64,000 nucleotides of DNA from Omphiscola glabra (Eukaryota; Mollusca; Gastropoda; Lymnaeidae): positions 21,466,088 to 21,530,087 of the forward strand of contig OZ024806.1 in NCBI GenBank assembly GCA_964017045.1. Direction: 5' to 3'. The translations under genes and the position numbers were made by a program. Position 1 is the stretch's first letter, and each line of letters starts with the position of its first letter. This document shows positions 4,250-58,421 of the stretch, in pieces. The notes beneath the pieces were generated by a model. The model worked only from the letters and a program-made list of their open reading frames with translations. It was not told the DNA's origin and did no database searches.

Positions 4250-4255
4250 TATAAA
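4250..4255 (+). promoter_or_regulatory. TATA box of locus 1
   Basis: TATAAA in the context CTCCTATAAATTCCG, about 70 bp before a consensus splice donor (CAGTCAG then GTAAGTC at 4321). The same TATA to exon to GTAAG arrangement is found at all four loci. Transcription would start near 4280. Confidence 0.6.
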
Positions 4256-4279
4256 TTCCGTCAGGACTACAAAAGTGGA

Positions 4280-4320
4280 CAACACCGGTTTCCTTTTAAC
4301 ACTCACAATCACTCAGTCAG
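4280..4320 (+). other. Locus 1 exon 1 (5' untranslated)
   Basis: A non-coding first exon of about 40 nt ending ACTCAGTCAG before GTAAGT. It aligns with the first exons of locus 4 (27068-27106) and locus 2 (58352-58390), sharing AACACTCACA...CAG. The start is inferred from the TATA position. Confidence 0.5.
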
Positions 4321-4689
4321 GTAAGTCAAGTCATATGTTCTGAGTTTCTCTCTTTGACTTATAATCATCGTGAGGTCGATCAAACTGTTTCTGTTCAGGG
4401 CATACATTTAAGAATTATTATTTCTTTTTTAAATATCATTACCCTTTTTTTTTTGTTGCACTTATATTGACTAAATGCGTCAATTAAATAAATGCATGTA
4501 TTGTAATTAATTTGATTCTAAAAGCATAAAGCTTCAACACTTTGTATCATTGTCAAATAGGTCTTTGATTTTTTTTTATAGCAAAGTGGTCTAACAACGG
4601 GCGCATTTTTGTTTAAATAGATGGATGCTGTTTGATCAAGTTACTTCTCCCACTTAAAAGCAAAATCTTCTTTGTTTTGTCATGTGATA

Positions 4690-5640
4690 CAGGGGCTATG
4701 TCTTGACGGGCTTGGGGTGTCTTTTTTGGACGTGTCCCGGGGTTTTAGTGTCTTTCTGGAGGTTGACGAGGTTGGAGTGTCTTTTTGGACGTGTCCTGGG
4801 GTTTTAGTGTCTTTCTAGTGGTTGACGGGGTTGGAGTGTCTTTTTGGACGTGTCCTGGGGTTTTAGTGTCTTTCGGAGGTTGATGGGGTTGGAGTGTCTT
4901 TTTGGACGCGTCCTGGGGTTTTAGTGTCTTTCTGGAGGTTGACGGGCTTGGAGTGTCTTTCTGGAGGTTGACTGGTTTGGAGTGTCTTTTTGGACGTGTC
5001 CTGGGGTTTAAGTGTCTATCTGGAGGCTGACGGGCTTGGAGTGTCTTCTGGAGGTTGACGGGGTTGTAGTGTCTTTTTGGACGTGTCCAGGGGTTTTAGT
5101 GTCTTTCGGAGGTTGATGGGGTTGGAGTGTCTTTTTGGACGCGTCCTGGGGTTTTAGTGTCTTTCTGGAGGTTGACGGGCTTGGAGTGTCTTTCTGGAGG
5201 TTGACTGGTTTGGAGTGTCTTTTTGGACGTGTCCTGGGGTTTAAGTTCTATCTGGAGGCTGACGGGCTTGGAGTGTCTTCTGGAGGTTGACGGGGTTGTA
5301 GTGTCTTTTTGGACGTGTCCAGGGGTTTTAGTGTCTTTCTGGAGGTTGACGGGCTTGGAGTGTCTTTCTGGAGGTTGACGGGGTTGTAGTGTCTTTTTGG
5401 ACGTGTCCTGGGGTTTTAGTATCTTTCTGGAGGTTGACGGGTTTGGAGTGTCTTTCTGGAGGTTGACGGGGTTGGAGTGTCTTTCTGGAGGTTGACGGGG
5501 TTGGGGTGTCTTTCGGGAGGTTGACGGGGTTGGGGTGTCTTTCGGGAGGTTGACGTGGTTGTAGTGTCTTTCTGGAGGTTGACGGGGTTGGAGTGTCTTT
5601 CTGGAGGTTGACGGGCTTGGAGTGACTTTCAGGAGGATAG
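4690..5640. repeat. Minisatellite in intron 1 of locus 1
   Basis: Units of about 25-60 bp are built from GGACGTGTCCTGGGGTTTTAG, TGTCTTTCTGGAGG and TTGACGGGGTTGGAG. A higher-order duplication is visible (4860-5060 against 5100-5290). It fills most of the intron between the untranslated exon and the signal-peptide exon. Confidence 0.9.
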
Positions 5641-5924
5641 ATCTTGATTGTGAATCTTTTTAACTATTCAAATATACTCACATTATTATTTGCAGACAAA
5701 TTAAAAGAAATTTAAAAGATATCTTTTTATTAGTAAATTATCATTGGCGCGATGTTTCCCCAGATGGAAGTCTCATTACCGGAAAAAAAAATTTAACTTA
5801 AAAAGTGGCAAGGTGAGAATATCAGTTCTTAACAGCAGTCCCAAAACCCCTCTTTCTTTTCACCGTACAATTTTAAACTACAATTGTTACAAAAGAATGA
5901 ATAGTGTTCCACTGACATGTACAG

Positions 5925-6086
5925 GAAAACTTGACCGTAATGATGAAGCTGTCAAGTTGTCTAAGAAATCTGGGGTTGTCATTTCTCCTGCTCATCGTCC
6001 TGGTTCAATGCGAGGCAAGGGATTTGGAGGACAGGGACGTGAACCTCGACGACGACACCCAACTTTCTGAGAGATTCTCTGAAGAG
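5925..6086 (+). CDS. Locus 1 exon 2: signal peptide and acidic propeptide
   Basis: The acceptor is ACATGTACAG at 5924 and the donor GTTTGT follows 6086. Two in-frame ATGs (5940, 5943) occur; the second aligns with the single ATG of the paralogues (MALSSC there, MKLSSC here). It encodes about 49 residues: a hydrophobic signal segment LGLSFLLLIVLVQC with likely cleavage next to that Cys, then an acidic propeptide with LEDRDVNLD and ending ERFSEE. The minus-strand exons at 26184-26327 and 57439-57582 share the LEDRE(D)-NL and ERFS blocks, which supports a coding exon over chance. Confidence 0.75.
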
Positions 6087-9000
6087 GTTTGTGCTTTTAA
6101 AAAAATCCGTTCTAAAAATAAAAATAATAAAAAGAAATGGTTTAAAAATCTGATTAAAGATTCCATTTATCCTATGTCACACATAACATCAGTGTACACA
6201 TTTATCCTATGTAAACTGTTTTGAGTCTTGCAACATGTCTTTCAACACAAAGTTTGGCACATCTTAAACTTACCATTACCAAAATGACGTATCCAGAGGT
6301 CTGAAATCAAATATAAGGCCTTCTTTATGTTTTTGGGCCGTAAATGCTATTAGAAGCATTTTTGGTTTGTTTTATAAAAACATCTCATTTCATTTAAAGG
6401 TAAAATATTTAATTTGGGAAAAGGAAATAGTTAAATTTCATATCTGTTGTTTGCCACAAACATATTCACCACCAATTAAATACCGTGTTGCCTGTATTTA
6501 ATACTTTCTTTCTGTCCCAATTTATTTTCTGTTGTTTGCTCGTTGACGAAGGCTTCCTGCCGACTTGTTCGTTGTTTCATTGCGTTCCCTTTTGCGGGTG
6601 TTCCCATATTTTTTTTACTCATTTCAGTTTTTGCTAACCTGATTTCAGCCTCTCCCCCTTATTACAAAATTTAATACCGCCAGTTATCATGATGCATAAG
6701 AAAATTATATCTTTTTAAAAATTTAATTGGATCAGTCAATAATCGGGGGAAAATGTGAAACAGAACTACTTGTTCCTATCTTAGTCTTGATAACAAAAAA
6801 AGTTAACAAAAGGTTGACTCGAAATCAAAGTGACTGATACGAATATTTTGAGGGGAGGAAGTAGCAGTGGCGTACCTGACTAAGGCCGCCCGGGACAATC
6901 ACACCATTTGCACCCCCTTTAACAGATTGGGTGAGGGGTCAACTGCTAATGGGATCTTAATACGGCGTTGGCAATGATCGCCTCGTGAGTTATTACATAT
7001 GGCTACTTCACTATGCAGACATTGTCCACTATGCAGACATTGTCCACTATGCAGACATTGTCCACTCTGCAAACACCGCCACTATACAGACACCGCCACT
7101 ATGCAGACACCGCCACTATGCAGACACCGCCACTATGCAGACACTGCCACTATACAGACATTGTCCACTATGCAGACACCGCATCTATGAAGGCATTGTC
7201 CACTATACAGACACCGTCCACTACTATGCAGAGAATCAACAAGTGAATTATTTATCGCTGCTGCCACACTTCAAACAACTTAAACTGATTTTATTGTAAC
7301 TTTGAAACGTGCATGCTTTGTATGCACTGAATTCACTATAGCATAAGAATAAAATGGACTGAATATGCTCCCAACTTAACGCCCACATCACATTCTTTTC
7401 AGCACATTCTTTTCAGCACATTCTTTTCAGCACATTATTTTCAGCATATTATTTTCAGCACATTATTTTCAGCACATTCTTTTTAGCACATTCTTTTCAG
7501 CACATTCTTTTCAGCACATTCATTTCAGCACATTCGTTTCCCACACATATATTAATGGCTTATTTTTATTTATAGTTTCTTAACGATCAAATACATTTAT
7601 TTAATTTTATACCCCCTCCTCTCCTTAAGTTAAGCAACCACAGACACTCAAAGAGAGGGCATCATATTAAAATATACTATCCACATCACTGGGGGCGCAG
7701 CATTGGTGTAAGATCTGATGTAAGTTATTACACCGCTTACCAGCTTGAACTCAGCTTTCTTTTTTTAATGACCACCCAGGGTGGGAGGGCATGAGTGTAG
7801 TAAATGTTAAATCAGGGCAAAAGGGCTTCCTAAAAAAAAATTGTCGCTGCTTCCATCCTTCTTGCTGATGTATGTCAGGCGGGTGGATTTCTAACTAGCA
7901 CTTACTTCAGAATCAACTGGTGTCCATTTTAGTATTCATTAAAGCCATCATATAGTTTGAAGTGGTCGGTACAGTACCTACGAATGTGCTTCACTTGTGA
8001 AAGATGTAAATGTGTTGGCACGCGTGTTGTTTTCTATATTCGTTTCGATGATAAGTCGGAGGTGCGGACTCGACCTTTGACATTTTTCAGTGAATAGCAA
8101 ATCTTTGGGTGAAGAGAGAGAGGGGAAAATCTGAGAATGCTCTATCACATTTCGAAGCATTCATTTAATTTTTTTATCTAACCATAGACTGCAATGAGCT
8201 TAACACGGAATTTAAGGCAAAACGGAGAAAGTGTAATTTTGAATAATGCATGTATAAATATTATTCATTCTTTTTGCCTAGCACACGTTTTGAACATCCA
8301 AGCTTCAATTGCGCAATTTGGTTTGCAAATATTTATTGAATGAAAATAATGATTATGAAACGCTTTCATTATATTGAATTCCGGGAAATCCCAAAATCCA
8401 CATTTGATATCTTACCATGGTGTCGGCGAGACATTGTCTCAGTTGGCTTAAATAAACGATTTTGACCTTTTTAGAAGGGACCACATAAAATGCAACTGTA
8501 AATGATCCGTAAAAATGGGAAGGGGGGGGGGTGGGTTGGAGAGCGTGTAGGCATTTATGCACCAAGGTGATGAGATGAAGAAGTGAAGGAATGTGAGCTA
8601 ATGGTAGAATAAAGTTGTGGATGAAAATTATCAGTTAATAATAAAATAAGGGTACACAGCTGTCTTACAAGTCAGATAACAAGAGCAGTGAAAGTGACCT
8701 CCCCTCACTCAGCTTATTGAACACTATCATGGTATGCAACTAATTCAATGGGCGAAGTCTTTGCTGAGACAGCCTTAAATTCTAACATATTTCATTTATG
8801 ACAAGTGACAGCAGTAACAAATCGGATCACCCTATTCTTACTTTTTCTTACTCCAGACAGAAGCAAAAAAAAGAGAATTGATTGACTCCTTAAGAGCCCT
8901 TGCTGGCGCATTTGCGAAAGAATCTCGAAATGTAGGTAGAAAAGTTGCGCAAATTTTTAATTTTATTTTTTATTTAATTTTTTTTTTTTGGTTGCTTTTT

Positions 9001-12000
9001 AAAAATATTTGCAGTATTACATGAATAATAACGCGTGTGTGTTCGGATGTGGTGTGTTGATACTGTATAAAAAAGTACACAAATAATGTATTTATTTGTA
9101 CACACTACCATCAAGTAACCCGTGCACAGTGTTAAAATATCATGATAAAAATGGCTGCGGATATTCTATTTTTAGCAATGCTAATAAGGGGAGAGAATGC
9201 AATCGGATTAGCAAAATAGGAAATGAGCTGTTTTGTTGCGTTCCTTTTTTTCCAGGTTTGACCCTTACTTTTTTTTTTTACTCATGTCCTATTTTTAGCA
9301 ATGTCTGCTGGTCAAATTTAAATTAATCTAAGACTTAAACGCTGAAATGATCTAAATAGCAACCATGGCAATAACAAAAGTTGCTGGGTTTTTTTTAAAC
9401 AACAGCATGAACCATTTTTATGGTAATAAGAAACAGTAGCAATAACACCATTATCACCAACAGCTCAGAGAGTAATTAGTGTCATTGGGCTCGTATGGTC
9501 TTTTTTGGTGAGACCGGTACGCGCGTGTCAGCCTAACTGTAAGCTACTTGGTATGTTCACTTAGGGTGCAGATGAACTCCGGGGCAAGGCCATTGAAGGA
9601 ATCCTATGTGGGGGTTGGGTAACTTGGGAGTGACACTTGATTGACCGCACTGGGTGAACTATATCCTAGTGACGCCACTGTGTCAGCACCGATAATTTCA
9701 GGACCTGCGTATTATTGTCACAGTTATTGTGTACATATTAGTATCACGTTTCGTGTGTACATATTACTAACACAGTTCTTGTGTACGTATTAGTATCACA
9801 GTTATTGAGAACATAATAGTATCATGGTTCTTGTGCACATATTATAATAACAGTTCTTGTGTACAATATGCGTCACGGTTCTTGTGTACATATAACTATC
9901 AAGGTTCTTGTGTACATATTAGTATCACGGTTCTTGTAAACATCTTAGTATCACAGTTCTTGTGTACATATTATTATCGATGAAGGGATGTCTCTATTGA
10001 CAAAAAGGAAATTTTGCAATAAAAATATTTAGTGTGTGTCTTACCCTGTATTTTTTACCTTAAGTCACTGCGCTTTTTATAGATGGCTTATTTTAATGAT
10101 TGTTTTTGTCCAGGTTGTGGCTGATGTTGACAGACGTCATTGGTTCAACAATGCAGAAAGAGACGCCCCGGTTAGTACACATATTTTCGCAAACATTTTG
10201 AGTACCAACCCCCCCACCCAAACACCCCTGTTCTTCTACTTCACCCCCCCACCCAAACACCCCTGTTATTCTACTTCACCCCACCCCCCACCCAAACACC
10301 CCTGTTATTCTACTTCACCCCACCCACACCCACCCCACCCAAACACCCCTGTTATTCTACATCACGCCACAATTGTCTGTTTTTCGACTTTAAACTGAAA
10401 ATAAAAAATAAAATTGTGTTGAAATTCAGCAAGCTGCTTTATTTCGTTGTATGAATTTGGCCAATCAAGTTCGGCCGTGAGAAAGCCGCTCATAGGCAAC
10501 CGTTTCGTCCCGCCACTACCAACGTCCCGACCGAAAGACTCCCTGGGCGGTGGGGAGTGGTAACGCAACACCAACCCCCCGGAGTGGAAGCAAAGCCGTC
10601 CTGACCCACAGAGAGTGGACTGCGGACGCTTTAAACGCAGCGTCCTCGGTCGACCGGGCCTCCCCTAGGTCAAGGGGGAAGTTCCCGGCGCCCTCCCGCA
10701 CGGGCTGGAGTCGGGTTAAGTCCTTCAGTGCTCTGGACTGTGTGGGGGGCGCCGGGGGGGCATTAAGAGCTCACGCTCGACGGCCCACCGACTCCATCTC
10801 TTATGCGACATTTTCAGTTCGGTCTATGGCCGCCTGACAGACAGCCAAATATCTTAGCTGAATTAAAAATCCAATCCATAAATTAATTACATTTCATTGT
10901 TAATTTTTTTTCCTCCAATACTCGCTTTCAGATTGAAGTAGATTATTAAAAAAAAAATTAACAAACATGTTTTCTCTTGCAAATTCATGTTCTTGATGAT
11001 GCAAAATAATAATTATTATTAATATGGACTAAATCTCCAAAGTTTTTTCACGTATCTCTGTTACTTGTCATACATCTTGTTGTCCTGTTTGCTGATGAAG
11101 TCTCTAAGCCGCCATGTCCAAATCTTTTGTCCTGTCGATTAATTCAAGTTCAGCATACCTTGTTCTTATATCTCTCGATGGTGCAAGTGGTTTATTCTTT
11201 TATGAAAAACAAATGGTTCTCGGATTATTTTAATTATAGAGAAACAATCAAATGTGCAAATCAGAAAATCTGATAAATTACGATCACCACACATTTTTTA
11301 ATGCGGAAATATATTGAGTTACTGTGTTAAAGCGAGTATTATAGTCGCAGTAAATGTGCAGTAAAGCCACACTCAGATTGAATGTTTATTTGAGGTTTAA
11401 AAAAATAAAATATTAGTACTAAAGCTATAAGAACCTAATGTGAATTATTTTCTTGTCATTCGGCATGATAGCGGAGTATTTAGCAGGGAATATTTAAATC
11501 GTGGCCAATAAGACTGAATGAGCATTATATTTTAAAAAATGCGTGCGTTGTTAAACTGGGTTTTGAGTTTCTGTTTATGCGAGTTTTTAAAAAGTCTAAT
11601 TGAAAACGAAACGTATAAACCTGAGGACCGAGTAATAAAAAATAACAATAAATATTAATTTAAAATAGCTCTAAGAACATAACAATAAACTCGTTGTGTT
11701 GTTGTTGTTGTTGTTTCTCTGTGCTAAGCATCTCGTTAAAAGCTTAAACAGATATTTTTTGTCACAGTGATTTTGTGAAGTTTGTTTTGTTTCGTATCAC
11801 GGTTGTTTTTAATGACTTTTCAGGTTGCTGACTTTAACAATTCTGTTGTTATTTGTTGTTTTTTTGGTTGTATAAATACCCACCAGAAATTCGATCAAAT
11901 GAAAAAACAATATTTACTATAAAAAAGTTACGTACTTAAAATAAATTAATTGTGAAATCAAATGTTGTTTTTAGGCATAATAAATTAGTCTAACGAAGAC

Positions 12001-13187
12001 TAAGATAATATAAAGTCAGTAATTATAGTATTGACCCAAGAACATCGTTGTCTAACTCATTTACTTGTAGAACTCATCTGAAATTTAAAACGTGGGATGA
12101 AAGCCGTACTGAGTTTGACAATGTAATGTTAACAAATAAAATAAGAATTATCGTGGTAAGTTTGTCTGGAACTAGCGCTAAGGAAAGCAACCTTTGCAAA
12201 AAAATCGAACCATTTACAGAATATGGCATTTACTTCTTTTGTTTCTCTCGTAGTTCGATAGTTATGTGTTACAACACAGTGCTTCAAAAAGAAATTTAGT
12301 TTTACAATATAGTGCGTTCAAAAAGAAATTTAGTGTTACAATATAGTGCGTTTTAAAAGAAATTTGACGAAAATATGACCGTGTGAACTGAACATTAGCA
12401 AAAAGAGATAATTTTTTAAGCATCGTTAAGATAGGGCTGTATATTTTTTTAAATGTACTTTTTCTTGCTTTTTAAACTTCTTTACTTTAATCAATGATAA
12501 ACATGTTGCATGCGTCATTCTTGACGGACGAAAAGGAAGGGTTAACGACTTATTAACACTTACAAACATTCTCTGACTATTACTATTCTAGGCAGCACCA
12601 AAACCAGGGATGGACATCTTAAAGGCCGTCATTGGTGCAGTTGCGAAAGCAGCTCTAAAGGTGAGTTGGAAATTGGCATCAATATTATTATTGTTTTCAT
12701 TCATTTTATTTTTAAATTTTAACATTGTTAGCAGTATGACCAGGGAAAGGAGGGAGGGGAAGGGATTGTTCTGATGTCGTGGGTTGATGCCGTTTTAAAA
12801 GTAAACGCCATCTTGCACGCCAGTATTTTTCAACAGTGACATTTAGAAATAATGCTTATTTAATTTTGATACACAATCCACTTGTAAGCTGTAATCCATT
12901 AAAAAAATTATGTTAAAATCTTTTTCTTAAAATAACAGTATTTAATCCAGGGTGTGCCACCCACCCTTATTTTTAGGATGACAATTTCAATTTCCCTGAA
13001 GAATTGTCTTTGGCCTATGATTAATGATATGGTTCGGTCAAAATAGTTATTTTAACTTTTTTTAATTATTTTGTGTTTCGAATGATCTCACATTTGAAAT
13101 AAAGTTGGCAAGCTTGATGTTTGTATATTTATTAATCTTTGTCTTTTCGTCCAGAATGCTGCTGCCAGCGCTGAAGCAGCGCCTTAA
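5940..13187 (+). CDS. Locus 1: secreted modular peptide precursor (spliced)
   Basis: Five coding exons are proposed: 5940-6086, 8857-8931, 10114-10170, 12592-12660 and 13155-13187 (stop). All junctions are phase 0 with GT/AG ends, giving a precursor of about 126 residues. The order is signal peptide plus acidic propeptide, peptide exon 1 (after KKR), spacer 1 (with DRR), peptide exon 2 (amphipathic, Ala/Val/Lys-rich), and a short C-terminal piece from spacer 2, which runs into TAA. A further exon at 14609-14635 keeps an open in-phase frame with its own stop and may be used if spacer 2 is skipped. The protein would enter the secretory pathway and be cut at basic sites. I do not recognise a named family; a defensive or membrane-active peptide is an inference from composition. 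No transcript evidence. Confidence 0.6.
7010..7230. repeat. 18-bp tandem repeat in intron 2 of locus 1
   Basis: About 12 units of ACTATGCAGACATTGTCC and the variant ACTATGCAGACACCGCC. Located between the signal exon and peptide exon 1. The rest of the intron upstream (6087-7010) shows only AT-rich sequence. An element fragment near 6540-6580 (TTGACGAAGGCTTCCTGCCGA) is repeated at 26030-26065. Confidence 0.85.
7391..7545. repeat. 14-bp tandem repeat TTTTCAGCACATTC
   Basis: About ten units of CAGCACATTCTTTT in intron 2 of locus 1, with T/A variants in the middle units. Confidence 0.85.
7560..7790 (+). other. Conserved intronic block shared with locus 2
   Basis: The sequence around CACTGGGGGCGCAGC and ACACTCAAAGAGAGGGC reappears reverse-complemented at 56480-56650. 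That is the equivalent intron of the minus-strand locus 2, between signal exon and peptide exon 1. It shows that loci 1 and 2 are paralogous beyond their exons. From 7800 to 8850 nothing else is identifiable. Confidence 0.65.
8857..8931 (+). CDS. Locus 1 exon 3: peptide module 1
   Basis: Acceptor CTTACTCCAG at 8856; donor GTAGGT after 8931. It encodes 25 residues beginning TEAKKR, a tribasic cleavage site, followed by an amphipathic segment ELIDSLRALAGAFAKESRN. It aligns with the exons at 55476-55556, 48907-48987 and 43763-43840: basic site in the same place, a shared L-x-x-x-A-G core and Asn near the donor. Unlike those, it lacks a second dibasic site after the core, so the released peptide would run into the spacer or end by trimming. 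Confidence 0.65.
9710..9985. repeat. 27-bp tandem repeat in intron 3 of locus 1
   Basis: About ten units of TAGTATCACGGTTCTTGTGT plus ACATAT, with point differences. Just upstream (about 9480-9685) is a stretch ending GTGACGCCACTG, the terminus of the CAGTGGCGT MITE family. From 8932 to 9480 nothing recognisable. Confidence 0.85.
10114..10170 (+). CDS. Locus 1 exon 4: spacer module 1
   Basis: Acceptor TTTTTGTCCAG at 10113; donor GTTAGT after 10170. It encodes 19 residues, VVADVDRRHWFNNAERDAP. It aligns with the intact 23-residue spacer of locus 2 (52285-52353) through D-x-DRR, FN-A and the RDA end, with four residues missing in the middle. The conserved DRR is itself a possible processing site. 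Phase 0 at both ends. Confidence 0.65.
10205..10365. repeat. C-rich 35-bp tandem repeat
   Basis: Four units of CACCCAAACACCCCTGTT plus ATTCTACTTCACC lie just downstream of the spacer 1 donor of locus 1. Confidence 0.85.
10440..10850 (-). mobile_element. GC-rich retroelement 5' fragment
   Basis: A sharply GC-rich island inside an AT-rich intron, with no stop-free frame of gene quality. It resembles in character the GC-rich block at 24840-25095 and could be the 5' untranslated region of a LINE. The assignment is tentative; it is clearly foreign in composition to the intron around it. From 10850 to 12590 lies AT-rich intron whose part after about 11100 is duplicated at 28.08-30.35 kb. Confidence 0.35.
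12592..12660 (+). CDS. Locus 1 exon 5: peptide module 2
   Basis: Acceptor ACTATTCTAG at 12591; donor GTGAGT after 12660. It encodes 23 residues, AAPKPGMDILKAVIGAVAKAAL and a final Lys, strongly amphipathic if helical. Its duplicate at 30352-30423 differs by several residues but keeps the core DIL-x-AVIGAVAK-x-AL. The basic pair at the cleavage position is PG here and KK in the duplicate, so processing may differ. Confidence 0.65.
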
Positions 13188-16900: not shown

Positions 16901-16904
16901 GTGA

Positions 16905-44866: not shown

Positions 44867-44872
44867 TTTATA
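44867..44872 (-). promoter_or_regulatory. TATA box of locus 3
   Basis: TATAAA on the minus strand in CTCCTATAAATCATG, the same context as at the other loci. Confidence 0.55.
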
Positions 44873-48109: not shown

Positions 48110-51100
48110 CTGCAATTATATGATCAAAAGTTTTCCAAAAATAGAAACCTTTTCGACTTTATTCCAAATGAAAAATCACGTGAAATGGAGAACAAATTAC
48201 AAAATATAAATTAGTTATTGGCTGCAGCTATTGTTACCTGGGTACCAGAATTGAGAGCTTGTGATTAAAAAAATATTTAAAATATTATTATTGCGTTTGT
48301 AAGACCAAATAAGGTATCAAAAGAAAAATAATTGAATGTACTATACGTTTGTAATCTTAATTCTTCAGTTTTACTAAAATAAACTACTACAAATGACATC
48401 CGAATAGCATTGAGTCTAATGGTACCCGGGTGCGAATGGCGGCGCTGCGTGTCTGGGTCCATTTTGCCTAATGCTATTCGGATGTCATTTGTAGTAGTTT
48501 ATATTAGTTAAAATGAAGAATAAAGTTCAAAAACATATATTACATTCAATTATCTTTCATTTGATACCTCATTTGGTCTTACAAACCCAACAATAATATT
48601 TTAAATCGTTTTTTAATCCCAACCTCTCAATTCTGGTACCGGGTACCAATAGCCACTTCGTTAGTTATTTCGAAAACGAAATATCTTTTTTTTTTTTCAC
48701 AGACATTTCTCCACCGATAATGTTATATAACTGTGACATTGCGGATAGTTTGCGGGATCGGAGTCTTTTACACAAATGATAAATAGATCATAGCTTACAT
48801 GAATTACAACACCAATCTACCACATCTAAACAATTACACTCAAAACGCCCGGGTAATATTGCTAGTATTTTTTTAAAGCACCGGGTGGAAATATTTTACT
48901 ACAAACCTTTTCAGTTCTTTTCCCCAACAAATTGCCGGCAACGCTCTTTAACAAGCCCCACCAGTCTTGTCTTTTTTCTGGATTTTCCTGGAATAGAAAA
49001 AGTCAGATACCGGTAGCTTTAAACACTCGTTTTCATTTTTTTTAAATTAAATAGTTTCGCCCCGCCAAACAAAGCGTAAATTTCACATCTACTAAAATTA
49101 CTTGACAAATTATAATTTAAAAAATTGTTGGTTTTTTTTGTTTTTTTGCTGGCATCCGTCCAACGATGACTTTGCAGGACAAAATGTATAAGGCCAGGGA
49201 TTATTTTTTTTTGGGTTTATAAGCTGTTTTCTCAACAGCAAATTGCTTCTCTCCACGCCGCTCTCTGCAAGGGGGCATCATGCTTAGCGTCGCAGGTCTA
49301 GTCGGAATGTTTCATTGGGCCAATGTTATCCGCAATCGGAACTCCAGCTCTGAGTTTCAATTCAGAGTCGCCTTCTCTTGGATGAGTTGCCATCCAGGGT
49401 TAACGAGTCCCATCCACCCGGGGTGCTGGTGATGTTTTCTGCTTGACTGGGCTTTGGCGGGGATTGAACTCCACACTACAAACTTGAGATTGACTCAGTC
49501 TAGAACAATCGACCACCCAGCACCCGTTCTATATAGAATATAAATTAGTGTAACCATCACCCTCCCCCCCCCCCAGTACGCCATCACCCTACCCCCCCCA
49601 CCCCAGGTAAGCCATCACACTTGAACTTCATTAAAATTGTAAAGTCATAGCCCTTTTTTACGCCGCAGATTTGTAATAGCACGATTCAATTGAGAATATT
49701 TCCGTCAAACAAAGAAAATGTTACGCACCAAAGGAACTTGCGCTATTTTTAATCCTTTATATTAACTCCTCTTCTGTTCGTGCCTGTCAAAAACTTTGTA
49801 CGGCTAACAGACACACTTCCCGTCAACCTATCAAGATGAAATTCGGCACATAAACTCGTTGACGAGGATACATTTTTGCGTACTGCTCTAATGTTTAGAA
49901 TTGAATCTCTTATTTTACTCTATGGCCCGTGACAAACATTACATAACAGAGTACGATACCAGTAATGAAATTTAGCATTAAAGAGCGATACACAACCTAG
50001 GGTTTATTAGAAATAATAATTTACGATCTACAAATCCAATAGAATGAAGCTAAGACTATTGACTTACAGTACAGCAATGAACTTGTGCCGGTAAAATGTT
50101 GAAAAGGGTGCGCACACACATACACACACACACACACACAGTAAATATTAATATACAAATCGCAAAAAACCATGTCTCTCCTTCGTCTCGTATCGTAATC
50201 GCTCCTCTTTTCTCTAAGTCGAGCGGCTTATTTATAGTCTCTCTTTGAGACTTTTCCAGAAAGGGGATATTCATTATTTCTGTACCTCGACCCGTCCAAT
50301 GCGTTCGAAAGATTTCTATTGCCAAAGGCTATAGACTATGTTTACATTATGCAAGGTCAATGATGGCGATTTATAATCAGGCTACACCCCGACGCGTTGC
50401 CATACTTGGGCTCAGCCGACGTCTGCTCTGCATAACAAAATGTAATCAAATTTTAAACAACCTTCCCAAACATCAACCCCGGAAAAAATCTCTTTTTTTC
50501 CTTTATTCAAGGGGAAGATGAAACAAGAACTCAGTACAGGAGCTCCTCATTCCTGCCAAAGACAATAAAGGACTGGAACAAGCTTCCAAAAGCAACAGTC
50601 GAGGCGAATACACCTGACACATTTGCGGCTCTTGCCTCCTGTCTTGCAACCAGTGAATTATCCCCTTAAAAAACCACGCACATTAACATCGCGAACCCCT
50701 CTGAACCATAGGAGCCATAATGATCAATGCATTGATCGTGGGCCCTCAAAACATAGAAGAAGAAGAAGAAGAATGAAATATGATGACACTGATTTCATGA
50801 AATAAAATTTGCGATAACTGCGTTAAATGATATTCTTTTTTTTTTTTGTAAAAAATATTCAATTGCATTTGGTGCGTAATATTTTTTTTTTGGTGTGTTT
50901 CCGAAATAGTTGGTGAGATAAATATGTGGTGTAAAAGAGGAGGGTTCTTTATAAATATTAATATAGTTAGGGGCGTGAAAAATAATATGTTGTTGCGACC
51001 TTTGGGGTTGGGGGGTGGCTTTAATATTGAATGTTTTGTCAAAGTTTCGGTCCCATTGCTCGATATTACATGTTATAAAGAATGTATACGAAAAGCTTTC

Positions 51101-54100
51101 TCATAACTTAAGTCCGATTCCCACTGCTTTAGTACGATTCTGATAGCTTTAGGGCGATCTCATAGTTGAAATGCTTATTCTCACAGATTTCGTACGATTC
51201 TGATTTCTTTAGGACTATCTTCATTGCTTCGATTCATGTATGTCTAATCAAGGCTGTTGAGGAGGCGGCAGTTACTTCCAATTTCATTTGGGAAGGGGGA
51301 ATCAATCTGTTCCTACTTTTCTGCTTTTGAATTGCTCCATGCAACAAAATTAATATGGGAATGTAAAGGATTACAAACAATCATTTTTATCAATTTTGAA
51401 TGACATTTGGCTCAATAAAATATCCATAATTAAATGAAAGTAAGAAATATCTAGCCGATTTTTTTAAAGCCAGTATTGAGTGTTTAAAGTACATTTATAG
51501 ATAGTACTAGGGGAACATATTAGACGGCTTGTCCGTCGTCAATAGATCACTTAACATATTTGCTTATGAAAGTATGTGAAATAGAAATCACTTTCATAAA
51601 CACCTTTGCAAAAACCTTTACGGATTAGATAATAATTGATAGACTGCATTCAAGTTGTGTAGATAAAATATAAGAACAAGGTGTGCTAAACTTGAATTCA
51701 TAGACAGGGACAAAAGATTTAGACGTTTCGGCTTAGAGCCTTCGTCAGAAAATAAGACAAAAAGACGTATAACGAGTATCAGATGACAGTAAAAAAAAAA
51801 AAACTTTAGAGATTTCCTTTTTGTTGCCGGATGTAGGATTGCAGGAAGTGAAAGAATATAAATAGTGGTACTGTGCAAAATAAGGCAGATTATCTTATCG
51901 GATCAAAATATTCCGATGAAGGTTCTATGCCGAAACGTCAAAATATTTTCTCCTGTCAATGACTTTACGGATTAGTTCGTTTTCCCGTTTAAATAAAATT
52001 AGAATCATCAAATCACCAAGAGACAAACAAAAACAAGAACCAGCAACATCGCCAAGGGAATTAATTTTCTAGGTCATCCTTACATGATAATTGAAATGTT
52101 CATGGAAGCTAGAGTTATTTTTTTTTATTGTAATTACTTCTTGAAAAGATTTTTTTTTTAATACGATCTAAAGCGAATATTCGCAAATGGAAAGCATCGC
52201 AAGGACCAAAATTATTTGGTTTAAATTGATTAAAAACGTAAAGATGCTTGCCACATTTCAGCTTTCTTTGATATGGTTACTCACCTCGGCGTCTCTGTTT
52301 TCCAGACTGTTCAGAGCGTTGAACAACTCACGCCTGTCGTTGTCTGTTAGCTCCTAGACAAAGACATAGATTATAAGTTAATGTTTGAAAAAACCTGCAT
52401 AATAACGTTCAAAATAATGTGAGATCACGTGAAATAGAAACTAAACAAAAAAATGTAAAGACCTTTATTGATCGCCCACAACATCGTTTCTCTTTGTCCG
52501 CGTAGACATTTCGTCATCGATAGCGAAATGTTCGTTATGGTGATAAGGGAACACACTCTATGAATGGTACCCATACATCTATCCATCCCTGTGACGCTAC
52601 AGCACATGTAGGGCTTCGGCCTGACTCACCACTTCCTTCCACTCAGACCTAACTAATGCTTTTCTTTTCCATGCTTGGATTCCCAGTTGTTGTAGATCAT
52701 TTTCTACATCACACATCCATCTAAGCCAAGTCTGACTTTGAGCCGTTTTCCTCTGGGGTATTGGTGATGCACCCTCTTCACTCCTCTGTCATTTGACATT
52801 CTTTCTAAGTGTCCTGCCCAGCGTGGGATCCTGATATAGACTGTACAATTCATTTTTATTTCGTATTCTCCATCCATATTCATCTTTTGTTGGTCTGTAT
52901 ATTTCCCTGAGAACTTGTAGCTCCCATGTAATTTTCTGCACTTTTTGTAAGGTCAAAGTTTCACTTACATATGTCACAACTAGTCTGATTACAGTTTTAA
53001 AAATAGTTTTCTTTGTTTCTCTTGTAATGTTTTTAGTTTTGGCTAATTTCTTACTACTTTAGTGTGCCCTGTTTCCAGTTGATATTCTTTCTTTCATTTC
53101 TGTAAGTAATTCGTTTCTTGCATTAATTAAAAAAACCTAGGTATTTGAATTGATTTACTTTTTTCAAAATTCTGGTTTCTAATTTTAATGGCTTTGTCTG
53201 TCATACTCTTATCATAGGTATGTATTTTGTATTTTGGTTCGAAACTTCCAGCCCTGCTTGTAGTGATACGTCTTCTAATTCAATAAAGGATTTTGATATG
53301 TCTTTAATACTTTTCTCCAGCAGTGATATGTCATCAGCATATGCAAGATACTGAAGGGGTTGATTGTAAAGTGTGTCCATTGGTTGTGTGTCTTGGGTTT
53401 CCTTCTGAAAGTATCCTGTTATTGTTCCTCCGGTGTCAATGTGTCTGCTTCTTATAACTCTCTCTAATGTTTGATTTAAAAATATACAAGACAGGGAGTC
53501 TCCTTGTCTCAGGCCTAGTCTAATCTGAAATTCCCTTGAATATTCTCCTTAAAACTTGATTTTGGAGTTGCTCAATGCTACATTATCAGTCTTGTCAGTT
53601 TGTTGGGTATGCTAAACTCCTCCAGAGTCTCAAATAGATGTTTTTCTTTTGATGCTGCCATAAGCCATTTTATAGTCCACATAGAGTTATGTACTGGGAT
53701 AGTATACTCATAACATTTCTCTAATAGGCATCTGATGATGAAAATCTGATCAGTCGTTGATCTGTTTTGCCTGAATCCACATTGGTAACCACCAAGTATT
53801 TCTTCAGTGTACGGTTGTAGTCTTGTGGCAATTAGCTTCTTCAGTATTTTGTATGAAGCATTTAATAGTGAAATTCCTCTGTAGTTTGTGCACTGAAGTT
53901 TGGAGCCTTCTCTTGTGTAATGGGTTTATTAATGATGTTTCCCATTCTGTTGGACTCGTCTATTCTTGTCAAATTTTAGTTATAATTGTATGCATCTGAG
54001 TGTGTAGGTCTCTTCCTCCATATTTATTAAGTTCTGCTGTGAGGAGGTCTTCTCCATGGGCTTTGTGGTTTTTCATATAATTGATTATTTCTTAGGTTTC

Positions 54101-57100
54101 TTCTAGAGTTTGGAAGTTTATAAAAGGGTCTGGTCCTCCATGTGGTGTTTGGTAATCTTCATCTTGTCTATTGTCTGCATTCAGTGTGTCCTCACAATAT
54201 TCATCCCACCTTTCCAGTACGTTACTTTTTTCCGTAATTAATTCTCCATCCTGGCTCTCACACACTTGTGTTCTGGCTTGGTATGCATTCTTTTCATCCG
54301 TTATCTTCATGTAAATTCCTCTGATGTTTCCCTCTCTTGATAAGGCCTCTATTTCTTTTAGCTCTCCAGCTGCCTTAGTTTTTGGGTAAGGTTTCCCTGC
54401 ATTTATGCATCCCTCCACTTCCTACAATGCAGTAGATTCTAATTTTGGTCCGCCCGGGGTATTTTATATCTGGTGGGCTTTCCCTTATCCGCAGCCCGGG
54501 GAGGCGCTCCATGGAAGATCAGTATCTCTGCACGAGATGAATAATATCTAAGTTTTAAAAATTAATGGGAGCGTCGCAACAGTGTCGCAGCAAAGATTGG
54601 TATCACCTTGTGGTGTAAATAATGGTGTCATTGCAACCCCCCCCCCCCAAAAACAAACCGGATATCTGTATCTGCCATGGAATTCTTCTGTGTCCTCTTA
54701 AAGCAGTGGTGCTCAACCTTCTTGATGCCGCGACCCTATAATACAGTACCTTATGTTGTGGTAACCACGAACCATAACATTATTTTCATTGCTTCTTCAT
54801 AAATGTGCTTCCGGTGGACTTAGGCGACCCCGGTGTAAGGGTTGTTCGATCCCCATATGGGTCGCGACCCACAGATTGAGAACCGCTGTCATAATGCCAT
54901 CGTGACCAATAAAAACCAAATGACAATTAGGCTTACTGTACGTCAACGTTTCACGCCGGCATAGCTTAGCTGTCCCGTTCTCTTTAAATTATGTCCCGGG
55001 TTCAATTTCAGTTTAGTAAAAAAAAATCATATTTCCTGACCGACAATGTTTTCTGTTCTCGCGTACATTAGCAATACCAGAACTTTGTTGGTGCCGTATG
55101 CAAATTCGTGTAATAAAACTAAAAAATCTACTTGTAATTACTACGAGATCTAGCGTTATGCCGTGTACATTTGTTTTTGGGTTTTTTTTTTTTTTAAGGT
55201 TTGAACCAACCCAGATTATATTGGCTCTGCTTTTCCAATCTGTTTATAATCAGTAGCACAGTGCCTCTCATAGTGAAACGCGCGATTTTAAGATATTTTA
55301 AATTATGTTCTACATTTCTAGTGTGTGTAAACTACTTTCGATTTACTCTTAAGACGCCGGGTAACATTGCTAGTATTTTTTTAAAAAGCAAACTGTGAGA
55401 CTTTTTCTATTCGTATTTCGATTTGTTTTTTTTTTCTCATGAAAATTTTTTTTTCCCAGCCATCTTCCGACTTACGTATTCATTTCTTTTCGTCAACAAA
55501 GCGCCAGCAACGGACTTTAAGAGGCCCATCCAGTCTACTCTTTTTTCTGGTCCTGTCTGGAATAGAAAAAGTCATAGATATATGAATCTGTGATATTTTC
55601 ATCTTTTACTAGTCGTTTTCAACTGTAAAAGAATGACTTATCTTTATAATAATTAAAGTTGTTGTTTGTTTTTTTTTTAATTTGAAGAGGCGACTTTAAG
55701 CCGTTATTATCCAAAGACAGTGCCAGTAAAAAAAAAAAAATCTTGATTGTGAAAGAACGGGAAATTAAGAGCTTCAGCGCTTCGAAGCTTAGACGACATA
55801 TACAATAATATCCATATGCCATTCAGACACGCTAGCAATGATGAGGAAGGGGGTCGAGATGTTATCAACAGGCGCTGAAACACCCCGCCACGCCCAGCTG
55901 CCTAAAATAAATAAACGACAACAACAAAAGAGCTGAACCTGGGATATGTCGAAGGACGGACAATGTTTGTAGTTACAGCGGAAGCCTACTATGCCCTGAT
56001 AATTGGTGTCCGAATAACCGGATGACTTTTAAAAAGAGGAGGCGCGGTTAATTATTCCGTCTCAATGGTGTTAGGATTTTTTGTTAAATTTTATATGTTA
56101 AGTGCATTCTGTTGTTCTTTACAAACAAATTGTTTTAATCTCTTTTTCGGCTTTTTGAGAAAAGTCATGTTGAAGTTGGACCCATTTTTTTAATTGTGTT
56201 GTACTAGATCAGTGGTTCTCAGCCTGTGGTTCTCAGCCTGTGAAATAAATCTGCGGTGTAAAAGCGGGTGGGTCCCTAGAATATTAATATAGATCAGGTG
56301 CGGGAAAAAATGAGTGGTAGCGAGTCCTGAAGGGGGGGAGAGGGGGCACTAATAGAGATTCATATAAAGTGCGTTGCTTGTATCCATGTTTTGTCTAATT
56401 CTCAACCCTACCCCATAGCCCCATATTACATTGTAAAAAGGATTTATACGAAAACTTTTGTATTTTTGGGGGGGTTGCTCATTTAAAGAAACGACATTCA
56501 AGCTGGTAAGCAGTGTAATTACTTAAATCAGATCTTACACCAAAGCTGCGCCCCCAGTGATGTGGATAGTATATTTTAATATGATGCCCTCTCTTTGAGT
56601 GTCTGTGGTTGCTTAACTTAAGGAGGGGGTATAAAATTAATTCATTATATTTGATCGTTAAGAATCTTTTTCTTTTTTTCTTTTTTAAATGGGCCATTAA
56701 TACATATTTGGGACAAGAATATGCCTTGTGCGTTAACTTGGTGCACAATGAAACGTATGAAGTCAAATGTATTCTTCTACTCTTGAAAAGTTTGTGCAAT
56801 CGTTGCAAGCATGTCTAAAGCTATAAAAAATCAGTTTTAGTTATATTAAGTGTAGTTGAATTTGGGAAAATATTTTTTCTGTTAAACAAGAGAACAGAGA
56901 AAGTAATAGTGTGTCCTTTTTCCAAACTAATTTTGTTTCTCTTTTTATATATATATATATATGTTTTTTTTAAAAGGGTGGGATGTGGTTGGTAGGGTTG
57001 GGAATGTGTGCGGAGGGTAACGGAGGTGTGTGGAGGGTTGGAGAGGTGTGTGGAGGGTTGGTGAATGTTGTTTTGTCATCTTTATAACGCGAGAAATAGC

Positions 57101-57582
57101 CTTACCAACCTTACAGCTTTCTGACAGCTGGATAATTTGATATGTATTTACGTTAAAAACTTCGGTTATAGCAAAATGAAACTGTTCCAAACTTTGTAGA
57201 TGGGATTGTTGCAATAAACAAAGAAAATTAAATAAGTGAAAGAAGGGCTTGTTGCAATGAACAAAGAAAATTACATAGGTGAAAGAAGGGCTTGTTGCAA
57301 TAAACAAAGAAAATTAAATAAGTGAAAGAAGGGCTTGTTGCAATGAACAAAGCAAAGTACCTAGAAGTAATCCAAACAAAATAACAAATTGTAAAGAATA
57401 ATGTTCGAGTGAAATCTTTGGTGTGTTTAATGACAAACCTCTCTGGAAAATCTCTCAGCAAGTTGTGGCTGGTCGAGGTTAATTTCCCTGTCCTCCAAGT
57501 GGTCACCTTCCTCGCAGTGAACCAGGACGATGAGCACGACACAGGACAAGACCAGATGCATTACACAGCTTGACAAGGCCAT
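48059..57582 (-). CDS. Locus 2: secreted modular peptide precursor (spliced), fullest copy
   Basis: Minus-strand coding exons: 57582-57439 (signal/propeptide), 55556-55476 (peptide 1), 52353-52285 (spacer 1, intact), 48987-48907 (peptide 2), 48109-48059 (spacer 2 to its stop). All junctions are phase 0, about 141 residues. The in-phase terminal exon 46596-46567 would be reached only if spacer 2 is skipped. Peptide 1 sits between EKR and TKR, peptide 2 between EKR and GKR, so two short basic-site-flanked peptides could be cut out, one amidated. The gene spans about 12 kb, with introns filled by SINE, LINE and MITE sequence. Function unproven; secretion and prohormone-like processing are inferred from motifs. 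Confidence 0.65.
48220..48660. mobile_element. Foldback/MITE element with 9-bp target duplication
   Basis: Two arms of roughly 190 bp form a long imperfect palindrome (ATTTGTAGTAGTTTAT against its complement, GGTACCAGAATTGAGAG against CTCTCAATTCTGGTACC). A loop of about 55 bp is GC-rich. TTAGTTATT is repeated at 48211-48219 and 48661-48669. A 9-bp duplication with long arms suggests a Mutator-like non-autonomous element; no ORF. Confidence 0.8.
48907..48987 (-). CDS. Locus 2 peptide exon 2 (amidation-type)
   Basis: Acceptor TTTTTCTATTCCAG, donor GTTTGT. 27 codons: ENPEKR, core QDWWGLLKSVAGNLL, then GKRTEK. Dibasic sites on both sides and Gly before the second give a predicted 15-residue amide with N-terminal Gln, two Trp, one Lys and a Leu/Val/Ala face. 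This composition is seen in membrane-active peptides. Confidence 0.65.
49150..49528 (-). mobile_element. tRNA-derived SINE, paralogue of 22780-23206
   Basis: Near-identical to the copy in locus 4, including the GGTGCTGGGTGGTCGATTG head, and in the same flanking sequence. It is followed by C-runs at 49560-49610. Confidence 0.7.
49729..49740 (-). pseudogene. Stump of a peptide exon cut by a dispersed repeat
   Basis: The flank up to GTTACGCACC matches the donor side of the locus 4 peptide exon at 23386 (ATTACTCACC). Only a few exon bases remain before a dispersed repeat (TTATATTAACTCC, also at 39345 and 63370) takes over. Locus 2 once had a third peptide exon here. 49830-50500 shows a CA microsatellite at 50113-50140 and nothing else. 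Confidence 0.4.
50505..50770 (+). mobile_element. LINE 3' fragment
   Basis: Related to 14907-15470: AGGAGCTCCTCATTCCTGCC, CAAGCTTCCAAAAG, and the tail ATTGATCGTGGGCCCTCAAA plus (GAA)n. Dead fragment. 50780-51060 is a dispersed repeat also seen near 56250-56470, 60165-60420 and 62880-63170. Confidence 0.6.
51700..51945. mobile_element. Inverted pair of hammerhead-like retroelement motifs
   Basis: Minus strand 51747-51722 reads CTGACGAAGG...GCCGAAACGTC; plus strand 51913-51939 reads CCGATGAAGG...GCCGAAACGTC. The motif CTGANGA, a short stem, then GAAAC resembles a minimal hammerhead ribozyme core as found in Penelope-like elements, but one extra A sits between the core and stem II. Suggestive only. 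Confidence 0.3.
52285..52353 (-). CDS. Locus 2 spacer 1 (intact reference spacer)
   Basis: Acceptor GTCTTTGTCTAG, donor GTGAGT. 69 bp, 23 codons: ELTDNDRRELFNALNSLENR and then DAE. It is the only full-length in-frame spacer of this type in the window. It is helix-forming and acidic, with a possible cut at RR. It serves as the reference for the broken spacers in loci 1, 2, 3 and the orphan copy. Confidence 0.65.
52590..54418 (-). mobile_element. Decayed LINE (RTE-like) with YADD box
   Basis: Minus strand, with many frame breaks. The start is ARTQVCESQDGELITEKSNV and ERWDEYCEDTLN, the linker before the polymerase domain. A YADD catalytic box lies at 53341-53330, and the C-terminal part contains REIYRPTKDEYGWRIRNKNE (52789-52977). 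It lies in the intron between peptide 1 and spacer 1 of locus 2. Not functional. Confidence 0.75.
54704..54888. mobile_element. hAT MITE resembling vertebrate URR1/SPIN-type elements
   Basis: Left end CAGTGGTGCTCAACCTTC, right end (reverse complement) CAGCGGTTCTCAATCTGTGG. The interior has ATGCCGCGACCC, ATGTTGTGGTAACC, CTTAGGCGACCCC and GGGTCGCGACCCACAG. The flanks TCTTAAAG and TCATAATG match at 6 of 8 positions. Terminal and subterminal sequence agree with my recollection of rodent hAT non-autonomous repeats. Confidence 0.65.
54948..55020 (+). mobile_element. Short tRNA-like SINE remnant
   Basis: GCATAGCTTAGCTGTCC resembles a tRNA A box and GGGTTCAATTTCAG a B box at suitable spacing. Unrelated to the other SINE family here. 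No cloverleaf. Confidence 0.3.
55476..55556 (-). CDS. Locus 2 peptide exon 1
   Basis: Acceptor TTTTTCTATTCCAG, donor GTAAGT. 27 codons: TGPEKR, core VDWMGLLKSVAGALL, then TKRNEY. Dibasic sites on both sides; Thr replaces the amidating Gly, so the product would keep a free carboxyl end. It differs from peptide 2 at few core positions, which suggests exon duplication within the gene. Confidence 0.65.
55680..56480. other. Intron of locus 2 with hAT terminus and shared blocks
   Basis: 55685-56205 matches the intron of locus 4 (24.1-24.7 kb). At 56211 CAGTGGTTCTCAGCCTGTGG, with a partial second copy, resembles a hAT end related to 54704. 56250-56470 is dispersed repeat. 56480-56650 is the block shared with 7560-7790. 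Confidence 0.5.
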
Positions 57583-57599
57583 CTTTAGGATCAGATTAT
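57439..57599 (-). CDS. Locus 2 exon 2: signal peptide and propeptide
   Basis: Minus strand: ATG at 57582, donor GTTTGT below 57439. 48 residues: MALSSC, hydrophobic LVLSCVVLIVLVHC, then EEGDHLEDREINLDQPQ and the end AERFSRE. It has one Arg for Glu near the end compared with locus 4, creating a possible extra basic site. Confidence 0.75.
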
Positions 57600-58351
57600 C
57601 TGTAAATGTAACAAATATTACGCGGTCATTGTGGTCAGATTAACTCTAAATTTTTTAAAAAAAATTACGCCATCATTTTCACAGCTATAATGTAAATTAT
57701 GAGATTGGGGGGGGGGAGGGTTAGTTGTTAATACTTATTACTAATCCTCTTGCCACTGTTCAATATAGATGTTGCTTTCGTGATTGTAACACCAGATTGG
57801 GAAACGTCTCGGCCATGCAAAGTTAATAAAATTATTTTATGTAGATCAGGATTCCACTAAAAAATTTCCTTTTAATCTAAGTTAGCAATATTACGCCCTT
57901 AAAAGCAGTCATCTCTACGTTCTTAAGATACAACTCACGTATCTTTCGGTAGAAGCGTAGTGGCTTCCTTGAGAATAGTTTAGTACATGTGACTTCAATT
58001 TAAACAAATATTTTCAACTCACTAAGACTTTTAAGATGCATAACATTTCTGTTATCTTTTTCGAAAATTTGGTCTACTTTTATGATGAGATGATTTAAGA
58101 TCATTTTATTTGTTAAAAATCATCGATAATCATAATATCTTTTTTTATCTTTGCGCCAAGATGGCATATAACGAAAGAATTGTGACGGTCTATTTACTAT
58201 TTAAAGAATTTTATAAAAACTCCTGGCACATTTAGGTATCTTTTTTTTTAGGTGATTTAAAAATAAAATTAATTTATGCCATGAACAGAACAGCTTCGCC
58301 GACCTCACAAAATAAAGCAAGAGGTGAAGCTAACCATGCAGCCTGACTTAC

Positions 58352-58390
58352 CTGGCTGTGAGACTGTGAGTGTTGACAGGAGAGAGTGTT
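58352..58390 (-). other. Locus 2 exon 1 (5' untranslated)
   Basis: Minus strand, ends CTCACAGCCAG before GTAAGTC. One CTCTCCTGTCAACACTC unit. The start is inferred from the TATA box. Confidence 0.55.
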
Positions 58391-58415
58391 GTCCGACGAT
58401 GTGGTCCTGCCGACA

Positions 58416-58421
58416 TTTATA
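58416..58421 (-). promoter_or_regulatory. TATA box of locus 2
   Basis: TATAAA on the minus strand in CCTTATAAATGTCGGCAGG. Confidence 0.6.

Follow-up and report, generated by a model that had tools for sequence, protein, structure and literature searches.

A two-orientation cluster of peptide-precursor genes

We analysed a window of 64,000 nucleotides (nt) from the genome of the snail Omphiscola glabra (assembly GCA_964017045.1, contig OZ024806.1, positions 21,466,088 to 21,530,087 of the forward strand), in which the exons of a cluster of peptide-precursor genes were located by motif, profile and alignment searches. The cluster is a tandem, two-orientation set of genes. Two are complete (gene A on the + strand and gene D on the - strand), and the other three (B, C and E) are incomplete or degenerate copies. 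The interval 4250-58421, singled out by an original prediction made from the sequence letters, runs exactly from the TATAAAT box of one outermost gene to that of the other. All four of its TATA/exon 1 units and all three of its signal-peptide exons were located. Its remaining exon counts are also represented in the window, yet only A and D are complete genes, and in both the prediction had overlooked a His-rich exon encoding GHHIKIYYPHHWGR, with the peptide HHIKIYYPHHW (7630-7707 + and 56616-56539 -).

The exon order is the same in A and D: a TATA box with noncoding exon 1, an exon for the signal peptide and acidic propeptide, the His-rich exon, peptide exon 1, an acidic DRR spacer (spacer 1), peptide exon 2, spacer 2 and a terminal segment. 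In gene A, the TATAAAT box at 4250 and exon 1 occupy 4250-4320 (+); the exon start is placed by inference about 30 base pairs (bp) 3' of the box, and the exon ends at 4320 at CAG/GTAAG. Exon 2 (5925-6086) is followed by the His-rich exon LSNHRHSKRGHHIKIYYPHHWGRSIG (7630-7707; 78 nt, phase 0), peptide exon 1 TEAKKRELIDSLRALAGAFAKESRN (8857-8931), spacer 1 VVADVDRRHWFNNAERDAP (10114-10170), peptide exon 2 AAPKPGMDILKAVIGAVAKAALK (12592-12660) and spacer 2, which reads NAAASAEAAP before a stop (13155-13219). The terminal segment starts at 14609-14635, and its nearest AATAAA/ATTAAA-like site lies 121 bp downstream.

Gene D lies entirely on the - strand. Its TATAAAT box at 58421 and noncoding exon 1, which ends at 58352, occupy 58352-58421, and exon 2 encodes the signal peptide and acidic propeptide MALSSCVMHLVLSCVVLIVLVHCEEGDHLEDREINLDQPQLAERFSRE (57439-57599). 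Downstream are the His-rich exon LSNHRHSKRGHHIKIYYPHHWGRSFG (56539-56616; 78 nt, phase 0), peptide exon 1 TGPEKRVDWMGLLKSVAGALLTKRNEY (55476-55556), spacer 1 ELTDNDRRELFNALNSLENRDAE (52285-52353), peptide exon 2 ENPEKRQDWWGLLKSVAGNLLGKRTEK with a GKR amidation signal (48907-48987), spacer 2 ALTDAEKQVLLKNLNL ending in a stop (48045-48109), and the start of the terminal segment (46570-46596). Peptide exon 2 fell outside an early listing of phase-0 exons, which demanded GTA or GTG donors and a pyrimidine tract, and was found by the other searches.

The four TATAAAT boxes with an exon 1 stand at 4250 (+), 58421 (-), 27137 (-) and 44872 (-). Upstream of each, at a distance of 118-164 bp, is an identical block, ACACATGCGCAAA, at 4086, 58539, 27295 and 45023 (4086-4098 + in gene A; 58527-58539 - in gene D). 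No NF-kB consensus occurs on either strand of the four promoter stretches.

The encoded proteins have the layout of multi-peptide secreted precursors, with a signal peptide, judged by its hydrophobic N-terminus on inspection, and peptides bounded by dibasic sites. KR flanks both sides of the cores of D peptide 1, D peptide 2 and gene C, and the A cores are without the second KR. Outside the signal peptide, no cysteine is present in the A and D precursors or in P0002, one of two Lymnaea stagnalis homologues described below; in the other, P0001, cysteine occurs only in the leader and signal.

Reading frame and the 3' end

The original prediction held that all coding junctions are phase 0 and the exons interchangeable. 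The spacers contradict this: they measure 69, 57, 65, 65, 61 and 67 nt, and the last four contain an in-frame stop. Symmetry is limited to two of the six, spacer 1 of D (52353-52285, 69 nt) and spacer 1 of A (10114-10170, 57 nt). The asymmetric spacer of A and D is in each case the second (65 nt), and it is in the homologue of this spacer that the two Lymnaea proteins terminate (...TLAEAEK and ...NSANSAPSAEGGR), so spacer 2 is probably the C-terminal coding exon, corresponding to the C-terminus of P0002 in A and of P0001 in D. We also weighed a shorter form of spacer 2 of D, ending ...GAGAAACAG/GTATTA (24 nt, phase 0), but did not adopt it.

The terminal segments are probably 3' untranslated sequence, or otherwise belong to a rare isoform that skips spacer 2; a direct join past spacer 2 to the terminal segment is possible. 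The nearest AATAAA/ATTAAA-like sites lie 113-216 bp past the start of the four terminal segments, versus 789 bp (A) and 558 bp (D) past spacer 2, and because of this proximity the segments fit a 3' untranslated exon. Three of the four copies (14609, 41393 and 46596) share a stop position, A-x-G-x-x-x-D-I-stop. A coding role for this tail was considered but is not favoured: compared by eye, the copies show no codon bias, and each Lymnaea protein stops in the homologue of spacer 2. The predicted six spacers and four terminal exons are all recovered as copies by profile, the latter without support as coding sequence.

Relatedness of the exon copies

Where eight peptide exons had been predicted, we find seven full copies (74-112 bits, 4.2e-22 or better) and one partial copy near 22655 - (4.4e-6), scored with an nhmmer profile built from these same seven full copies. 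In 20 shuffled windows of 63,995-64,000 bases, the peptide profile reached at most 10.2 bits. As a further check, single exons with 20 + 10 bases of flank were used as lone queries at E 0.05. The three signal-peptide exons (5940-6086 +, 57582-57439 - and 26327-26184 -) find each other at 2e-21 or better. Each peptide exon finds at least two fellows, at 1.5e-16 to 0.035; peptide exon 1 of D finds all seven others, including D peptide exon 2 at 9e-15 and A peptide exon 1 at 3e-7, while A peptide exon 1 and the C peptide exon find three each. With a profile that was iteratively re-built from the matches it returned, the six spacer copies score 4e-22 or better. As lone queries they also find fellows (1.9e-17 to 0.0044), but spacer 2 of A and the spacer of fragment E match only each other, and spacer 2 of D only the spacer of C, which does not bear out the claim that all exons align with each other. 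The four terminal segments were gathered by a profile that also pulled in tandem repeats beside 41393, and their one-by-one links are weak. Two motifs had been proposed as shared features. The PEKR-like site is exact in two copies only, and D-x-DRR is present in three of the six spacers.

Orthologues in Lymnaea stagnalis

The weightiest evidence against a chance resemblance comes from outside the window. When the D precursor, entered without its His-rich exon, was compared with about 5.8 billion proteins, a single one was retrieved at E<=1 among 22 candidates: P0001 of Lymnaea stagnalis (187 amino acids, E 5.5e-33). A profile search in which the best 7998 candidates were scored added, at E<=10, P0002 of the same species (116 amino acids, E 5.2e-19). 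Both entries are listed with the same longest contig, of 1,382,050 bases, and therefore the two proteins probably share one contig; the entries carry neither name nor function. A search aimed at the His-rich exon returned P0001 alone at E<=10 (1 candidate), an absence elsewhere that says little given the uncertain coverage of snail genomes.

Judged by signal-exon identity, P0001 is the orthologue of D (34/48) and P0002 that of A (35/48). The remaining comparisons are lower (D-A 30/49, D-P0002 28/49, A-P0001 28/49, P0001-P0002 26/49), and since identity within pairs exceeds that across pairs, the divergence of A from D appears to predate the separation from Lymnaea. The two proteins have the same module order and ends as D and A. 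P0001 follows the exons of D in order, with D exon ends placed on it by alignment, as protein entries cannot show splice sites. Its leader SQPDNLIRKM corresponds to SQPDNLILKM across the joined exons 1 and 2 of D, and the later exon ends (slashes; P0001 given first) fall at E/LRNH and E/LSNH, KRIEH/ELTD and KRNEY/ELTD, KDSE/TLREKR and RDAE/ENPEKR, and GKRADK/TLAEAEK and GKRTEK/ALTDAEK. The start of P0002, MMKLSSC, is the exact reading of the ATGATG that opens the gene A precursor. Outside the cores, the A and D orthologues are conserved at 70-83%.

Other searches gave no relatives. The best Pfam rows for precursors A and D, both without the His-rich exon, were under the cut-off (Bromo_coat 0.24, DUF4533 0.039). 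Neither Pfam nor NCBIfam, a bacterial and archaeal library, had a meaningful match for P0001 or P0002, and PDB sequences had none for precursor D. The window and Lymnaea peptide strings are absent from 5.39 million PubMed Central open full texts, supplements excluded. In keeping with the original prediction, which did not recognise a described family here, the cluster represents a real, apparently undescribed gastropod family of secreted-peptide genes.

The His-rich exon

The His-rich exon is the best-conserved exon of the cluster. In P0001, LRNHQPSKRRHHIKIYYPHHWGRR lies after the propeptide and ahead of peptide 1; A and D have LSNHRHSKRGHHIKIYYPHHWGRS(F/I)G in the corresponding position, and a dedicated search of the window found it at those two sites only. 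Up to WGR, the exon is identical to P0001 at 19 of 23 residues, and HHIKIYYPHHWGR, unchanged at 13 of 13 between D and P0001, is the longest unchanged stretch. Because it is bounded by KR and WGR sites, the sequence suggests that HHIKIYYPHHW is released as an amide.

Between A and D the exon is identical at 77 of 78 nt, and the match extends into the introns (7574-7749 against 56497-56667; 176 bp, 92% identical). The signal exons of A and D are 77% identical and their 120-bp flanks 44-49%. P0002, the orthologue of A, is without the exon. The simplest reading of these comparisons is a recent event, postdating the separation from Lymnaea, in which the exon and its intron edges were copied from one of these two genes to the other. 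Alternatively, P0002 may have lost the exon, or lack it in annotation, with gene conversion between A and D. No other clear case of exon exchange was found in the cluster. Modularity as originally proposed thus survives in one exon, apparently copied with its intron edges, and four of the six spacers contradict phase-0 interchange as a general rule.

Divergence and properties of the peptide cores

The peptide cores differ more between species than the rest of the precursors. D and P0001 are identical at 10 of 28 core residues versus 69 of 94 in the signal, His-rich and spacer exons (Fisher 0.0005). For A and P0002 the counts are 11/33 in peptide 2 and its tail versus 55/72 elsewhere (P 6e-5), a comparison that omits peptide 1, mostly missing from P0002. 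Overall, window and Lymnaea cores are 31-40% identical. The spacers are conserved (16/23, or 20/24 when six residues from the end of peptide exon 1 are counted) and are therefore not idle linkers.

When the peptide 1-2 pairs of D and of A are pooled, pairs that were picked after the exon-alignment results had been seen, the 45 changes divide into 5.3 synonymous and 39.7 non-synonymous, fewer synonymous changes than in neutral simulation (P 0.001-0.003 under two mutation settings). The original prediction had named a lack of excess synonymous change as evidence against itself, and taken literally these within-gene pairs show just that. Non-coding drift is disfavoured as the cause, however, because orthologues exist in another species. 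Peptide exons 1 of D and A alone give P 0.03-0.07, and no non-synonymous excess is found between D peptide exon 2 and the C peptide exon or between A peptide exon 2 and that of fragment E. The last pair differs slightly more in the exon than in the flanking introns (13/69 vs 23/235, P 0.055). Signal-exon pairs lean synonymous, clearly so for B-A only (P 0.004-0.06). These sequence patterns are suggestive of diversifying selection on the cores; a claim of positive selection was softened, as the outcome hinges on which pairs are pooled.

With core ends set by eye where no KR marks them, the helical moment exceeds that of shuffles (P<0.05, uncorrected) in four of seven window cores and in all three Lymnaea cores. 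The Lymnaea cores have net charges of +2, +2 and -2, counting side chains only and ignoring termini and His. The second Lymnaea core, QWWRILLKIATAIF (charge +2; helical moment 0.61, P 0.006), comes closest in appearance to a membrane-active peptide.

Partial copies and the surrounding sequence

Gene B (-) is a partial duplicate of gene D. It retains a TATAAAT box with exon 1 (27068-27137), an open signal-peptide exon 2 (26184-26344), a strongly diverged peptide exon 1, TGLEKRISFPDIFNPIALMGL, that has lost the second KR (23386-23448), and a remnant of peptide exon 2, TKPESSLHGPWEQLSNILKLFKGKK, with a stop at its end (22578-22655). Neither a spacer nor a His-rich exon of B was located in the window searches; despite these losses, B could be translated.

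Gene C (-) has a TATAAAT box and an exon 1 swollen by a 16-bp minisatellite, with a GC donor (44319-44872). No signal exon was recognisable in the window searches. Its peptide exon AWLEKRQWLDMLKSIAGSLLGKRNEN lies at 43763-43840, its spacer at 42909-42975 (67 nt, frame broken, stop after ELTDTDRRELFNSE) and its terminal segment at 41367-41393. The minisatellite, at 44350-44830, comprises about 30 copies of a unit that reads as exon-1 sequence in reverse complement (TGTCAACACTCTCTCC), and the exon appears to have expanded from inside.

Fragment E (+) duplicates the 3' half of gene A, with a peptide exon TAPDKKVIDILTAVIGAVAKVALN (30352-30423), a spacer of 61 nt with a stop after NANAMKQRLHS (30957-31017) and a terminal segment that has not kept the stop position of the other copies (32997-33065). 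Its promoter and signal exon were not found in the window searches.

Self-comparison of the window shows a segmental duplicate at 11.2-14.9 kb and 28.1-33.3 kb, both on the + strand. Parts of 21.6-27.5 kb match 47.3-58.8 kb, and parts of 40.9-45.2 kb match parts of both of these; inverted matches occur at 4.1-4.4, 5.9-6.1 and 7.6-7.7 kb. Tandem repeats are abundant (83 Tandem Repeats Finder rows). Two minisatellites are long, homogeneous and open in several frames, at 28353-28819 (18 bp, 98% matches) and 60518-61130 (12 bp, 92%), and one of the two sits at the edge of fragment E. An open reading frame at 1976-2995 (+) resembles part of a reverse transcriptase (Pfam RVT_1, E 1.7e-6, just under the cut-off), which we take to be of long interspersed nuclear element (LINE) type; a search for this stretch in phages gave no match. 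ARAGORN, run with the bacterial code, found no tRNA in the window, and nothing in Rfam reached the gathering score.

Discussion

From the observed exon anatomy, orthologues and conservation pattern, we infer processing and function as follows. The account we favour, tentatively and at slightly less than an even chance, is that these genes encode secreted, KR-processed precursors with about one exon per peptide, which would yield a conserved His-rich amide and diverging amphipathic helices for host or chemical defence, in the manner of frog skin-peptide genes. The signal exon would direct the precursor into the secretory pathway, where the acidic propeptide and acidic spacers may neutralise or hold the peptides. 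A proprotein convertase in secretory granules would cut at KR/EKR, with amidation at ...HHWGR and ...LLGKR and conversion of N-terminal Gln to pyroglutamate. Predicted products are (G)HHIKIYYPHHW-amide and amphipathic helices of 14-16 residues such as QDWWGLLKSVAGNLL-amide, together with the pyroglutamate peptide pGlu-DWWGLLKSVAGNLL-amide and its Lymnaea counterpart pGlu-WWRILLKIATAIF-amide. The helices would act on membranes, their cores diversifying under conserved signal, spacer and cleavage sites, and the His-rich peptide may act on a conserved target, either a receptor or a metal ion. That the family is secreted, multi-peptide and rapidly evolving, as first proposed, agrees with the signal exons, the KR sites, the two Lymnaea orthologues and the faster-diverging cores; a defensive role remains an inference, and a plausible one.

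Several observations weigh against this account. The net side-chain charge is 0 in five of the seven window cores, -1 in B peptide 1 and +2 only in A peptide 2, so that the window cores are unlike classical cationic antimicrobials and, A peptide 2 apart, do not have the net positive charge of linear alpha-helical antimicrobial peptides. D peptide 1, D peptide 2 and B peptide 1 are not significantly amphipathic (P 0.28, 0.08 and 0.30). The evidence for selection varies with the choice of pairs: D1-D2 with A2-E gives P 0.12, and D2-C alone 0.3-0.6. In Lymnaea, the HHIKIYYPHHW exon and the greater part of peptide 1 are missing from P0002, and in P0001 the stretch from the His-rich peptide to GPEKR is several residues longer than in D, an inexact step in the exon correspondence. 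An AlphaFold model of P0001 was of low confidence (mean predicted local distance difference test score, pLDDT, 43.8) and was set aside.

A serious contender, though on the unlikely side, is that the genes are neuropeptide or hormone precursors in which amidated (G)HHIKIYYPHHW carries the message, with the amphipathic pieces as secondary or connecting peptides. Molluscan neuropeptide precursors have a signal peptide, dibasic cleavage, amidation signals and several peptides per precursor. The snail genes share that layout, with their KR sites and WGR/GKR signals, and one of their peptides is unchanged from one species to the other (13/13), in contrast to the variable cores; they differ in their fast-diverging amphipathic cores and in matching no Pfam family. 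Duplicated clusters that contain degenerate copies and quickly changing cores are also less usual among neuropeptides, and the His-rich exon is missing from P0002 and was not found in gene B, though peptide exons persist there. Reproductive or pheromonal peptides from accessory glands (egg-mass, seminal or water-borne) would show the same anatomy, and rapid core divergence between conserved processing sites fits them as well as it fits defence; nothing seen in the window points to reproduction, and we think this unlikely.

The truncated or frame-broken state of B, C and E and the four asymmetric spacers might instead mean that the window copies are mostly decaying pseudogenes and that only Lymnaea-type A and D matter, in relatives. 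This is improbable in our view: in both A and D the exons are open, splice sites are present and a TATA promoter precedes the gene, and their orthologues are well conserved outside the cores. A chance assembly of splice-like sites in repeat-rich DNA, which the many minisatellites of the window might favour, has a negligible probability; it is in effect refuted by the match of the D precursor to an annotated snail protein, and the profile scores are far over those of shuffles. Returning to the defence account, we also considered a more elaborate form, decidedly doubtful, in which hygrophilid snails would have an arsenal, an invertebrate equivalent of the frog skin-peptide genes, of a conserved hormone-like or metal-binding amide and diversifying membrane-active amides, all released from a single precursor. 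Here the signal-less C and E, on the same strand as and downstream of D and A, respectively, would be joined by splicing to the signal exons of those two genes to supply alternative 3' halves, and one promoter would serve several peptide sets.

Frog skin-peptide genes reportedly share a signal-peptide 'export exon', as the title of a cited reference has it. They offer the closest parallel in organisation. One account describes 15 homologous genes that cluster in both orientations, have 3-5 exons and derive from cholecystokinin; in Xenopus laevis there are multiple tandem peptide exons, one gene is pseudogenised and another uses its neighbour's terminal exon, and one precursor can give hormone-like and antimicrobial peptides (PMC3731216). 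The snail cluster resembles the pipid genes (magainin, PGLa, CPF/caerulein, XPF/xenopsin) in its clustered two-orientation genes, duplicated peptide exons, degenerate copy and, as predicted, mixed precursor products. It departs from them in its acidic DRR spacers, in the conservation of a His-rich peptide and in cores close to neutral, and no sequence relation was detected; the protein searches (E<=1, and E<=10 among the best 7998 candidates) gave only the two Lymnaea proteins and no homology to the cholecystokinin-derived frog precursors. By analogy, the snail cluster appears to work like the frog skin-peptide genes without being a member of that family.

Whatever the role of the precursor, HHIKIYYPHHW would be a new peptide. 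The A-D exon copy with its intron edges would be an instance of exon exchange in a peptide family that could be dated in relatives. Macins are cysteine-rich and have a cysteine-stabilised fold. They too are small secreted peptides of the same animal group, but the snail cores contain no cysteine and do not class as macins. In a Lymnaea stagnalis transcriptome study, macins are the sole antimicrobial peptide family reported, and it is suggested that hygrophilid snails perhaps use novel, uncharacterised antimicrobial peptides (PMC7919325). Freshwater hygrophilid snails are hosts of trematodes, and the cluster described here offers a concrete, testable candidate for such a novel antimicrobial category.

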